64,000 bases of DNA from Flavobacterium sp. N2038 (GTDB lineage Bacteria; Bacteroidota; Bacteroidia; Flavobacteriales; Flavobacteriaceae): NCBI RefSeq assembly GCF_025947185.1, contig NZ_CP110001.1, forward strand, positions 1,364,001-1,428,000, in the 5' to 3' direction. This document shows positions 15,901 through 62,187 of this stretch, piece by piece. The notes under the pieces are model-generated. The model did not search any database and was not told the DNA's origin. It saw only the letters and a list, made by a program, of their open reading frames with translations. Numbering within the stretch: the first letter of the stretch is position 1; each line of letters starts with the position of its first letter. The translations under genes and the position numbers were made by a program.

Positions 15901-15902
15901 TA

Positions 15903-16017
15903 TGCGTGAGGGATAGGAGCCGGCTACCGAAGTAGCGCGGATAGCCCGACAGCAATATAAAAAGGGGCGACTAAGCGATTGCAATAGTCAGCCCCTTTTT
16001 ATATTGGTGGCACGCCC
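15903..16017 (-). repeat. Structured dispersed element, copy 1 (three-way-junction fold, minus-strand orientation)
   Basis: Read on the minus strand it starts GGGCGTG and ends TCACGCA, whose GCGTG/CACGC can pair as a closing stem. Inside are a long hairpin (arms 15985-16006 and 15953-15973, about 21 bp with one bulge), the conserved linker GGGCTATCC, a short hairpin GCTAC-TTCG-GTAGC, and the linker TCCTATCC. Copy 2 at 61936-62049 on the plus strand keeps every part. The long arm alone could end transcription arriving from either side. Confidence 0.75.
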
Positions 16018-16027
16018 AGATTATTAT

Positions 16028-16987
16028 TTACGGAATCAAAATTATTTTCCCTGTACTTTTTCGGCTTTCCAGATAATCATGTGCCAGTTTTCCTTCAGAT
16101 AATTTAAAGGATGTTGGTTCAGAAAGTTTGATTTTGCCTTCAGTAATCCAGTTGAATAATTGATTAGCTCTTTTGATTCTTTCTTCTTTTGAGTTTAAGT
16201 AACTCCATAAATCGCCACCGGTTAAAGTTTTTGAAGTATCCATTAACATTCTTGGGTCTACATATTCAGGATCGCCGCCTGCCATTCCGAAGAAAACAAC
16301 CTGACCACATTCTTTAGTCACTTCGAAGCTTTCTGTTAAAGTGCTTCCGATACTGTCATAAACAACATCAACTCCTTTTGGAGTTACATTAAAAACTTGT
16401 GATTTCCAATCTTCATTGTAAAGAAAAACATGATCTGCACCTTGCTCAGTTGCCACTTTGGCTTTGTCTGCAGATGAGGTTAAGCCTATGATTTTTGCAC
16501 CTAAAAATTTACTGATTTGGGTTAAGATCTGACCAACTCCGCCAGCAACGGCGTGAATTAATACTGTTTCACCTTTTTGAGTTTTATGACTATCGGTGGC
16601 TAAATAATGTGCGGTTAAACCTTGTAATAATATAGAAGCTGCGGTTTCAAACGAAATCGCTTCTGGCAGAGGTAAAATATGATTGGTGTTTACAGCAACC
16701 AGTTCGGCATTTGCAAAAGGAGCGTCGGCAAAAGCCACACGATCGCCCACTTTGTATTCAGGATGATTATTGGCATCGATTACAATTCCGGCACCTTCGT
16801 AACCCGCAATAAAAGGTGGATTTCCTTTTAAATGATAATTTCCCTTTCGTCTGTAAACATCGGCAAAATTTAATCCGATAGCTTTCATTTCGATTAAAAT
16901 CTCATCGCTTTTTAGTTGTGGATTTGGGATTTCGATATATTCTAAAACATCTGAATTCCCAAAAGAAGAGAAGGTAAGTGCTTTCAT
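16028..16987 (-). CDS. NADPH:quinone oxidoreductase-like zinc-type alcohol dehydrogenase family protein
   Basis: 319 residues of the medium-chain dehydrogenase/reductase family. The N-terminal GroES-like domain has GLNFADVYRRKGNY and FIAGYEGAGIV, matching quinone oxidoreductase. The zinc-binding cysteines of true alcohol dehydrogenases are absent. The Rossmann part shows ILLQGLTAHYL and VLIHAVAGGVGQILTQ (about residues 145-160), and the C-terminal end matches the family. It probably reduces quinones or other enones with NADPH in the cytoplasm. It is monocistronic, with the cupin gene upstream on the same strand behind its own terminator. Confidence 0.88.
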   Translation of the reverse strand: MKALTFSSFGNSDVLEYIEIPNPQLKSDEILIEMKAIGLNFADVYRRKGNYHLKGNPPFIAGYEGAGIVIDANNHPEYKVGDRVAFADAPFANAELVAVNTNHILPLPEAISFETAASILLQGLTAHYLATDSHKTQKGETVLIHAVAGGVGQILTQISKFLGAKIIGLTSSADKAKVATEQGADHVFLYNEDWKSQVFNVTPKGVDVVYDSIGSTLTESFEVTKECGQVVFFGMAGGDPEYVDPRMLMDTSKTLTGGDLWSYLNSKEERIKRANQLFNWITEGKIKLSEPTSFKLSEGKLAHDYLESRKSTGKIILIP

Positions 16988-60862: not shown

Positions 60863-60925
60863 ATGGACGATTATTATTCGTTAGTACTTAATTAAAAGCA
60901 GCTTTTGAAAATTTCAAAATGCTGC
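60863..60925 (+). promoter_or_regulatory. corA leader: ten-codon frame followed by hairpin
   Basis: ATG at 60863 opens MDDYYSLVLN and stops at 60893-60895. Three bases on, GCAGC-TTTTGAAA and TTTCAAAA-T-GCTGC form a long hairpin (60898-60925). The corA ATG is at 60947. The arrangement looks like a leader-peptide/attenuation or occlusion device, but this is a guess. Confidence 0.35.
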
Positions 60926-60946
60926 GATAAAACCCTGTATTTTGAA

Positions 60947-61873
60947 ATGAAAGCCTTTTACACAAACGACAACGGATTACTACAAATACCAAAATGGATT
61001 CCAAACTGCTGGATAAGTATCGAGGATCCCACAGAAACAGAAAAAAAATATTTACTGGAAGAACTTCAAATTCCCGAAGCATTCTACAATGATATCGAAG
61101 ATATCGATGAAAGACCCCGTATAGAAATTGAAGATGGCTGGACGCTTATCATCATGCGTGTTCCTATAAAAAGTAATGATATTAAACTTCCTTTTCAGAC
61201 CATTCCGATGGGGATAATTTTCAAAGACGATGTCTGCGTAACCATCACTTTTTACAAAACAGAAGTTATCTATGATTTTATGTTGTATTCACGACGCAAA
61301 AACATTCAGGTAAAAGATAATTTCGACTGGGTTTTGAGATTGCTCCTTTCATCAAGTGTTTGGTACTTAAAATATTTAAAACAAGTCAATCAGAAAATAA
61401 AACTGGCAGAGGATAATTTAGAGAAATCCATCAAAAATGAAGAATTGCAGGCCCTGCTTCAAATCGAAAAATGTTTAGTGTTCTTTATTACCTCATTAAA
61501 AGCAAATGATGTCTTATTTCAACGCATTAAAAATCTAAAAGCACATAAAGCAAATTACGATCCAGACTTATTAGAAGATGTCGAAATCGAATTAAGCCAG
61601 GCACAGGATACGGCCAATATTTACAGTAATATCCTCACTGGAATGATGGACGCTTATGCATCGGTCATTTCCAATAATATGAATAACATCATGAAGCAAA
61701 TGACTTCAATTTCGATCATATTGATGATTCCGACATTAATTGCCAGTTTGTACGGAATGAACGTACCAAATGGTCTGGAAGAAAGTAAATATGGTATCTG
61801 GATACTGCTTTTAGTTTCTATAGTGCTATCAACTTTCGGAGTCTTTTTATTCAAAAGAAGAAGATGGTTTTAA
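60947..61873 (+). CDS. corA: CorA-family divalent cation (Mg2+/Co2+) transporter
   Basis: 308 residues from ATG 60947; an in-frame TTG at 60905 lies inside the leader hairpin and is rejected. The N-terminal cytoplasmic funnel has WISIEDPTETEKKYLLEEL and IIMRVPIK. A long helix follows, and the C-terminal pair of transmembrane helices carries the selectivity motif YGMNVPNG (GMN) with the conserved MTSISIILMIPTLIASLYG before it. It ends in a basic KRRRWF. CorA normally imports magnesium; CorA-like zinc exporters also exist. It probably forms a pentamer in the inner membrane. Confidence 0.92.
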   Translation: MKAFYTNDNGLLQIPKWIPNCWISIEDPTETEKKYLLEELQIPEAFYNDIEDIDERPRIEIEDGWTLIIMRVPIKSNDIKLPFQTIPMGIIFKDDVCVTITFYKTEVIYDFMLYSRRKNIQVKDNFDWVLRLLLSSSVWYLKYLKQVNQKIKLAEDNLEKSIKNEELQALLQIEKCLVFFITSLKANDVLFQRIKNLKAHKANYDPDLLEDVEIELSQAQDTANIYSNILTGMMDAYASVISNNMNNIMKQMTSISIILMIPTLIASLYGMNVPNGLEESKYGIWILLLVSIVLSTFGVFLFKRRRWF

Positions 61874-61894
61874 TTTAAAAATTTAAAATAGTAA

Positions 61895-61923
61895 GAGCCT
61901 GTTCGTTAAGAATGGGCTTTTTC
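61895..61923 (+). terminator. corA terminator
   Basis: AGCCTGTTC and GAATGGGCT pair with two G-U pairs around GTTAA, followed by Ts. Confidence 0.7.
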
Positions 61924-61935
61924 GTTTTGTAATTT

Positions 61936-62049
61936 GGGCGTGACCGTGTTTGCAAAAAGGCGCATCAATCTTTGTGCGTATGCGCGCCTTTTTCAAACAC
62001 GGTCAGGCTATCCATGCTGCTTCGGCAGCTTATTCCTATCCTTCACGCA
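61936..62049 (+). repeat. Structured dispersed element, copy 2 (three-way-junction fold)
   Basis: Starts GGGCGTG and ends TCACGCA (closing stem GCGTG/CACGC). The long hairpin has arms 61942-61963 and 61984-62004 (GACCGTGTTTG…AAAAAGGCGC, one bulge). Next come the linker AGGCTATCC, the short hairpin GCTGC-TTCG-GCAGC, and TCCTATCC. Same plan as copy 1 at 15903-16017, but the long arm is different in sequence and the short stem has a compensatory change. Confidence 0.78.
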
Positions 62050-62072
62050 GCTCTTAGGGAATAATAAATCTA

Positions 62073-62187
62073 ATTCCTGCAAGGTTTTCAAAACCTTGTA
62101 GGTATACTTAGATGACTAAAATAGAATTTATTTTTCGGCTCAAATAGAGAGCAGAGACCTACAAGGTTTTGAAAACCTTGCAGGAAT
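62073..62187. repeat. Pair of exact inverted 31-base palindromic repeats
   Basis: 62073-62103 (ATTCCTGCAAGGTTTTCAAA…) and 62157-62187 are exact reverse complements, and each is itself nearly palindromic (CCTGCAAGGTTTT/AAAACCTTGTAGG). 53 bases separate them. They follow copy 2 of the structured element. Confidence 0.9.

Follow-up and report, generated by a model that had tools for sequence, protein, structure and literature searches.

A dispersed three-way-junction element of Flavobacterium, kin to Flavo-1, with hairpin arms that change type at a fixed locus

Results

Two copies of a three-way-junction element in the window

The window, i.e., the whole 64,000-nucleotide stretch of Flavobacterium sp. 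N2038 DNA that we analyzed, carries two copies of a short element whose conserved frame, TTTGGGCGTG ... TCGGGCTATCC ... CTATCCCTCACGCAAA, folds as a three-way junction made of a closing stem (P1) and two variable hairpins (P2 and P3). The element is dispersed, its structure is conserved, and the type of its long arm changes at a fixed locus. It is kin of the Rfam family Flavo-1 (RF01705), with an additional hairpin and a closing stem absent from the Rfam model, which covers the P3 half only. On balance, we lean toward reading it as a dispersed, non-autonomous, DNA-level element of a Flavo-1 superfamily, in which copy-to-copy conversion or template switching would replace each arm as a unit and new copies would arise via an enzyme acting in trans.

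On the strand in which the element was originally read (the reader's strand), the order of its parts is P1 (GCGTG/CACGC), the long arm P2, the linker GGGCTATCC, the UUCG hairpin P3, and the linker CTATCCC. The features of the two copies, taken from the sequence unless another basis is named, are as follows.

15903..16017, minus strand: copy 1 of the element (model limits 15901-16020; R1 67.0 bits, E 1.7e-16; fold z -6.73 as RNA against 200 shuffles)
16011..16017, minus strand: 5' end of copy 1, GGGCGTG, of which GCGTG is the 5' strand of P1
15949..16010, minus strand: long arm P2 of copy 1, AATATAAAAAGGGGC...GCCCCTTTTTATATT (sequence and fold)
15939..15947, minus strand: linker GGGCTATCC of copy 1, its GGG pairing with CCC at 15910-15912 (covariation GGG/CCC, AGG/CCT, GTG/CAC)
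15923..15936, minus strand: short hairpin P3 of copy 1, GCTAC(TTCG)GTAGC
15903..15916, minus strand: 3' end of copy 1, CTATCCCTCACGCA, with CACGC (15904-15908) as the 3' strand of P1 (sequence and motif search)
16028..16987, minus strand: zinc-binding dehydrogenase gene ending 11 nt before copy 1 on the same strand (ORF, Pfam PF00107)
61936..62049, plus strand: copy 2 of the element (model limits 61933-62051; R1 63.6 bits, E 1.5e-15; fold z -8.00 as DNA against 200 shuffles)
61938..61942, plus strand: 5' strand of P1 of copy 2, GCGTG, with its partner CACGC at 62044-62048
61943..62003, plus strand: long arm P2 of copy 2, of a type that differs among species
62005..62013, plus strand: linker AGGCTATCC of copy 2, its AGG pairing with CCT at 62040-62042 (compensatory relative to GGG/CCC)
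62016..62029, plus strand: short hairpin P3 of copy 2, GCTGC(TTCG)GCAGC (helix 4, paired in 98.5% of cells)
61894..61928, plus strand: terminator-like hairpin of corA with a T run, immediately 5' of copy 2 (limits set by eye; sequence and fold of the spacer at this locus, L014)
60905..61873, plus strand: corA-like gene with copy 2 on its 3' side, the anchor of the survey of 80 named orthologous loci (Pfam PF01544)

Both copies lie where an earlier note on this DNA had placed them, as judged by sequence, folds, and a covariance model, and the compensatory change that it reported in the short stem, from GCTAC/GTAGC to GCTGC/GCAGC, is real. Its statement that copy 2 keeps both linkers holds for the most part; one pair is altered on both sides, from GGGCTATCC...TATCCCT in copy 1 to AGGCTATCC...TATCCTT in copy 2, which turns GGG/CCC into AGG/CCT by a compensatory G-C to A-T change. 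The pairing of the long arms is nearly complete, but calling it perfect was slightly too strong, because C.C and C.T mismatches interrupt copy 1 close to the base and a C is bulged out in copy 2 (by eye). Likewise, the AAAAAGG core ascribed to the long arm occurs in some arm types and is missing from others. Directly behind copy 2, at 62066-62180, lies an inverted pair of CCTGCAAGGTTTTCAAAACCTTGTAGG-type palindromes, and similar palindromes adjoin several copies at the corA locus of other species.

The element is dispersed across Flavobacterium and beyond

A covariance model built from 12 copies read out of the N2038 genome matched the window exactly twice, at copies 1 and 2, although these matches are not independent support, since both copies are among the 12. 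The same genome (4.67 Mb) gave 13 model matches and, in a motif search, 10 exact CTATCCNTCACGCA ends. When 61 Flavobacterium genomes were scanned, 55 were positive, with at least 842 matches in total and 0 to 47 per genome; these counts are lower bounds because the first look scored part of its candidates. Across Bacteroidota, matches were found in 53 of 345 genomes and 27 of 154 genera, and of the same-genus genomes among those listed in this phylum scan, 22 of 23 matched. The copies read from other families keep the frame. A model scan of the kind proposed in the earlier note found many further copies in genus and phylum, in line with its picture of a spreading element, although spreading itself is what the presence and absence between species suggest rather than what was seen.

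We fetched 100 copies with their flanks, and the model found one copy in each; they were drawn from about 150 listed of the at least 842 genus matches, so that this sample favors well-kept copies. The element is mostly about 85 to 125 bp long and extragenic, with 8 of 112 copies overlapping a mechanically called ORF of at least 90 aa. With copy 1 as the sole query, blastn gave no match in a phage or plasmid collection. In open-licence PMC full text, no paper on the element was found, and a search there for frame strings of 12 to 13 letters returned a single match, in an Akkermansia paper. Partial model matches had been considered as a hint of a gene-carrying element; the seven that were read are ordinary copies with other versions of P1 or P2.

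Pairing is maintained in all three stems

P1 was fully Watson-Crick in 110 of 112 copies (the 100 fetched and 12 from the N2038 genome), in five versions, and two further versions, GCATG/CATGC and GCATT/AATGC, were seen outside the genus. In the same 112 copies, the linker stem occurs as GGG/CCC, AGG/CCT, and GTG/CAC, and the inner A-T pair is also seen as G-C and T-A. In an alignment of copy 2 with 48 orthologues, 96.9% of 1,833 cells pair, compared with 36 to 47% for slid partners, and the changes comprise 308 double-sided and 6 one-sided cells. The covariation score was 0.410, against a mean of 0.132 in shuffled alignments and at most 0.083 in slid versions. The shuffles alone would be no proof, because the copies are related; the slid control keeps that relatedness. 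One of the five covariation measures, that of further pair types, showed no excess (45 versus 48.3 in shuffles). The arms of further copies pair as well, and the view that structure, not just sequence, is maintained is borne out by these counts.

Such pairing could in principle reflect mutational symmetry only, with template switching keeping the palindrome perfect, the pairing showing no function, and the element being an inert relic. Compensatory changes of several bases in one step, for which a passage of PMC8794818 proposes template switching during DNA replication, are what this explanation predicts, and decayed and P2-deleted copies do exist. However, the P1 and linker pairs are short, lie about 30 to 100 nt apart, and still covary in several versions; the frame sequence is kept outside the genus; and arm types recur across loci and species. 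We therefore consider this explanation very improbable.

Two variants stood out among the copies. A second common palindrome, TCCCGAT..ATCGGGA, lies inside P2 or replaces the linker GGGCTATCC in three of them (L018, L242, and L244). Two genomes show, at different loci (L322 and L250), the same clean loss of P2, with TTTGG joined to GTCGGGC, as expected of a hairpin deletion.

Sister copies match Flavo-1 on the opposite strand

Flavo-1 was listed as a candidate RNA in 2010 (PMC2864571), and Rfam types it as an sRNA. In alignments, the part common to Flavo-1 and the element is the P3 domain, GATAG.AGC...hairpin...GCGGATAGC, which has a 3-bp stem at its base and a step of two pairs further in, and Flavo-1 is likewise dispersed in the same genomes; it differs in that its P3 is read from the opposite strand and that the Rfam model is without P1 and P2. 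The GGG/CCC stem and inner TA step, which we had found by covariation, are the basal pairs of the Rfam structure. By eye, the basal stem is GGG/CCC in the element and CYG/CRG in ten Flavo-1 matches of the N2038 genome.

Of 17 sister loci, most of them picked for a long P3, 11 reached the Flavo-1 gathering cut-off of 42 bits, with each match lying over the P3 domain on the opposite strand, and the other six (L141, L142, L146, L195, L198, and L203) stayed below it. Three sister-copy alignments span the whole Flavo-1 consensus, again on the opposite strand. The N2038 genome has 38 Flavo-1 matches, five of which overlap 5 of its 13 element copies on the opposite strand (at 70276, 1609696, 2169280, 2659001, and 4462691), three of them above the cut-off. 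Because the sister copies match Flavo-1 over P3 with the same basal pairs, we read Flavo-1 and the element as one superfamily. The window as a whole gave no Flavo-1 match at the gathering cut-off; copy 1 gave none up to E 10, nor did the loci of copies 1 and 2 (L013 and L014) in a scan of 16 loci. The window copies fall below the Rfam threshold because their P3 is reduced to the UUCG hairpin and a long P2 is added. The earlier note, which could not make this comparison, had held that a match to a described terminator family would remove the novelty; the element is indeed kin of a described family, but one that is an RNA motif rather than a terminator and that is read from the opposite strand.

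The long arm changes type behind corA

Among 80 named Flavobacterium-group genomes retrieved via CorA, 52 carry the element behind corA, with its start, wherever this could be parsed, 51 to 84 nt past the end of the CorA match, and a few (L357, L369, and L378) hold remnants of it. Setting aside one copy with P2 deleted (L322), one whose start was not parsed (L359), and two with N inside (L333 and L375) left 48 copies, to which the window copy was added. On a quick tree of corA, in which 13 of 46 inner branches are open, the P2 types require at least 15 changes with five types (0.80 identity) and at least 19 with eight types (0.85 identity). At 0.75 identity, all 48 arms chain into one type, so the types depend on the cut-off. 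They are nevertheless still clustered on the tree, with none of 200 shuffles as low. The earlier proposal that the element exchanges its long arm thus finds support at an orthologous site.

Close pairs of genomes illustrate the change. In L351 and L355, the gene is 0.96 identical and the upstream 60 nt 0.97, yet P2 is 0.71 identical, when P2 arms at unrelated loci and genomes are 0.66 identical. Among F. tagetis, F. tyrosinilyticum, and strain ACN2, the identities are 0.94 to 0.96 for the gene, 0.93 to 0.97 upstream, and 0.71 to 0.79 for P2, and the first 60 nt downstream have also diverged (0.62 to 0.72). Over 33 close pairs, mean identity was 0.86 upstream, 0.79 in P2, and 0.69 in the downstream 60 nt; P2 is therefore not the fastest-changing stretch. 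Its hallmark is the switch from one recurring, fully paired type to another. Well-kept flanks on both sides together with a P2 below 0.7 were seen in one of the 33 pairs, and recombination of an entire locus between species could give the same picture as arm exchange. In F. aquidurense DSM 18293 and LC2016-12, the downstream flanks are identical and the bases of P3 different.

Arms are also alike between loci of one genome. The identity of P3 was 0.818 within a genome between loci and 0.788 at the same locus between genomes, with none of 1,000 label permutations, which ignore phylogeny, as high. In one genome (G003), four loci have a common P3 that is absent from their mates at those loci. For P2, identity within a genome (0.698) beat all permutations but was below that at the same locus (0.745), and the best P2 match of the 58 long copies was at the same locus in 20, in the same genome in 11, and elsewhere in 27.

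Copies tend to sit behind genes, after a stop codon or terminator

To describe surroundings, we used mechanically called ORFs of at least 90 aa as neighbor genes and grouped loci by single linkage on flank similarity. Twenty-five of the 58 long copies (15 locus groups) lie 1 to 30 nt from a same-strand ORF end; another 14, in five locus groups and with the corA locus accounting for 8, lie at 40 to 120 nt, and 12 of these 14 come after a terminator-like hairpin with a T run (by eye). The long copies lean toward the strand of the surrounding genes (16 versus 5 tandem locus groups, p 0.027), and this lean counts against a DNA-level reading because RNA could also explain it. Short copies have no clear strand preference (21 in +,+ and 17 in -,- settings of 54).

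A placement directly behind genes, together with arms such as that of copy 1 in the window that consist of an A-tract, a GC stem, and a T-tract, would suit an intrinsic, possibly bidirectional, terminator cassette. Most arms, unlike intrinsic terminators, are without a T-tract: a run of at least four T after the GC stem was found in 8 of 25 near copies, 6 of 14 far copies, and 6 of 11 long copies without a same-strand gene on the left, so that it was not more common near an ORF end (p 0.51), and in 10 of 48 arms at the corA locus. Moreover, most of the far copies, including those at the corA site, already follow the gene's own terminator-like hairpin. A terminator role, for which T runs and distance to the ORF end show no association, is therefore not supported, and we rate it as quite improbable.

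At the site of copy 1, in seven relatives with both flanking genes, unrelated palindromes take the place of the element. This contrast of a filled site here and sites without the element elsewhere agrees with a spreading element, although the intergenic DNA is too diverged for a base-exact empty site to have been obtained. The long palindromes between this convergent gene pair differ among the relatives (L051 to L058; GTCATCCTGACGAAGGAAGGATC..., GCCACGAATTCACGAATT...), as though entire hairpins were repeatedly swapped here, and one relative (L058) has kept a remnant of the element's 5' end. At another locus (L011), the element lies, by eye, close behind the stop codon in a species group, decayed in some members and absent in others, with an independent reversed copy in one relative. 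A search for target-site duplications left 82 of 86 copies without a flanking direct repeat, against 81.6 in shuffled sequences.

The pairing leans toward DNA rather than RNA

By the common view, compensatory changes in RNA go through a G.U step. In the dispersed long P2 arms, with one fixed mismatch position excluded, we counted 1,041 Watson-Crick, 5 G.T, 17 A.C, and 12 other cells. In the 48 corA loci, G.U made up 2.5% of the P2 pairs versus 14.6% in the adjacent terminators folded with the same program, although these control terminators share ancestry. When the whole element was folded freely, G.U amounted to 7.4%, and to 6.7% on the other strand. The near-strict Watson-Crick pairing leans toward DNA rather than RNA, and would tip the earlier suggestion of a structured RNA or single-stranded DNA element, which our results as a whole support, toward the latter.

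The principal alternative is that the element is a functional structured RNA, either an sRNA or a 3'-UTR element as the Rfam filing of Flavo-1 would have it, with selection on the transcript keeping the fold. The very strong covariation, the sRNA typing, the lean of long copies toward the strand of the upstream gene, and a purine-rich internal loop read in the sequence of the Flavo-1 strand all fit this explanation. So does a bias in the P2 mismatches, of which 17 could form G.U on the Flavo-1 strand versus 5 on the reader's strand; read on the Flavo-1 strand, the excess A.C mismatches would become G.U, a weak lean toward that strand, with 9 of the 17 at one position. When folded, the dispersed long P2 arms likewise have a G.U content of 4.8% for the Flavo-1 strand, compared with 3.1% for the reader's strand. 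In F. psychrophilum, several 5' transcribed regions coincide with Flavo-1 matches, according to passages of the one transcriptome study mentioning Flavo-1 that our searches turned up (PMC9723704); however, the same passages describe the matches as seemingly falling sense or antisense of transcribed regions indistinctly and many in none, and state that the function of Flavo-1 could not be placed. Also against an RNA are the 6 one-sided changes beside 308 double-sided ones, the rarity of G.U in P2 relative to the neighboring terminator, the short copies without a clear strand preference, and the corA-site copies that sit after a terminator. Taken together, we regard a functional RNA as unlikely.

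A DNA-level element with exchangeable arms

Under the DNA-level reading, which we prefer, the arms would be replaced as units, by conversion from other copies, by template switching during replication through the hairpin, or by both, and new copies would arise via a putative trans-acting enzyme whose substrate would be the folded single strand or a cruciform. The element tends to sit just behind genes, after the stop codon or the terminator, and its transcription would not be required.

That this is a widespread, structurally odd relative of Flavo-1 with arms behaving as exchangeable modules is well supported, and there is a real chance that it is a distinct class of element. Our results suggest that the enigmatic "Flavo-1 RNA" in fact belongs to a mobile-like DNA element family. 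A bolder proposal, which we think possible but doubtful, is a phylum-wide class of DNA elements with a three-way-junction chassis and two plug-in hairpin arms, in which a dedicated host or element enzyme would recognize the folded single strand and swap or re-template arms between copies, so that the Flavo-1 "RNA" would be one arm module and not an RNA gene. Once Flavo-1 is seen as a portion of a bigger dispersed element, with arms that change while the site stays fixed, the question of its function becomes testable at the DNA level. The arm changes at the corA site form a natural series that allows conversion, template switching, interspecies recombination, and mobilization to be distinguished. 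The case also carries a warning that strong covariation alone need not mean RNA.

Comparison with REP sequences, MITEs, and their enzymes

Our analysis found no mobilizing enzyme and no autonomous relative of the element. A RAYT (Y1 transposase) is a natural candidate partner because a passage of PMC6006769 describes Bacteroidetes RAYTs of subclass 2.6 with atypical flanking secondary structures that have copies elsewhere, which would make the element a REP-like repeat mobilized by such an enzyme. A RAYT-like gene is present in the N2038 genome, and Y1 matches were found in 8 of 9 high-copy versus 3 of 6 zero-copy genomes. Against this, 30 RAYT loci, each taken with flanks of up to 1.5 kb, and three other Y1 loci of the N2038 genome gave no significant match to the element (one reached 10.2 bits, E 1.8), and one genome (G030) with 47 copies gave no Y1 match. 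The eight closest Flavobacterium RAYT genes (L079 to L086) carry a different hairpin, of the AAAGTCGGGAGACTT type and located 3' of the gene, perhaps their cognate REP (by eye). Nor was there an overall replication-direction bias. Although the Y1 presence counts alone do not exclude it, a RAYT partner is not supported by the flanks, the RAYTs' own hairpin, or G030, and we judge it the most improbable of the alternatives.

Like REP, BIME, and REPIN sequences, the element is short, palindromic, and extragenic, occurs in many copies, and keeps its end motifs as its stems and loops vary. It differs from REP sequences in having no GT[AG]G foot at its ends, where base frequencies over 86 rows give TNNTTTGGGCG at the 5' end and CGCAAA at the 3' end; GTAG is found inside P3, not at an end. 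It further differs in having no RAYT beside it in the loci tested, in forming a three-way junction with two exchangeable arms, and in numbering tens of copies, as opposed to the more than 100 usual for REP according to the abstract of PMC2817692. With MITEs, it has in common a small size and non-autonomy. Its short imperfect inverted ends (GGGCGTG/CACGC) recall those of MITEs, but the 5 bp that pair and covary are very short for a MITE. Unlike MITEs, it has no detected target-site duplication, no parent transposon was found, and its internal structure is conserved.

Relative to replication, copies in eight genomes were split 62 to 79 by direction (p 0.18), with the origin taken from the position of dnaA only. 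Two of the genomes together (G042 and G057) have 12 copies co-directional with and 34 opposed to replication. In the N2038 genome, dnaA (G000:C1:1660294-1661687) appears in four pieces and contains in-frame stops, pointing to frameshift errors in the assembly or to a broken gene.
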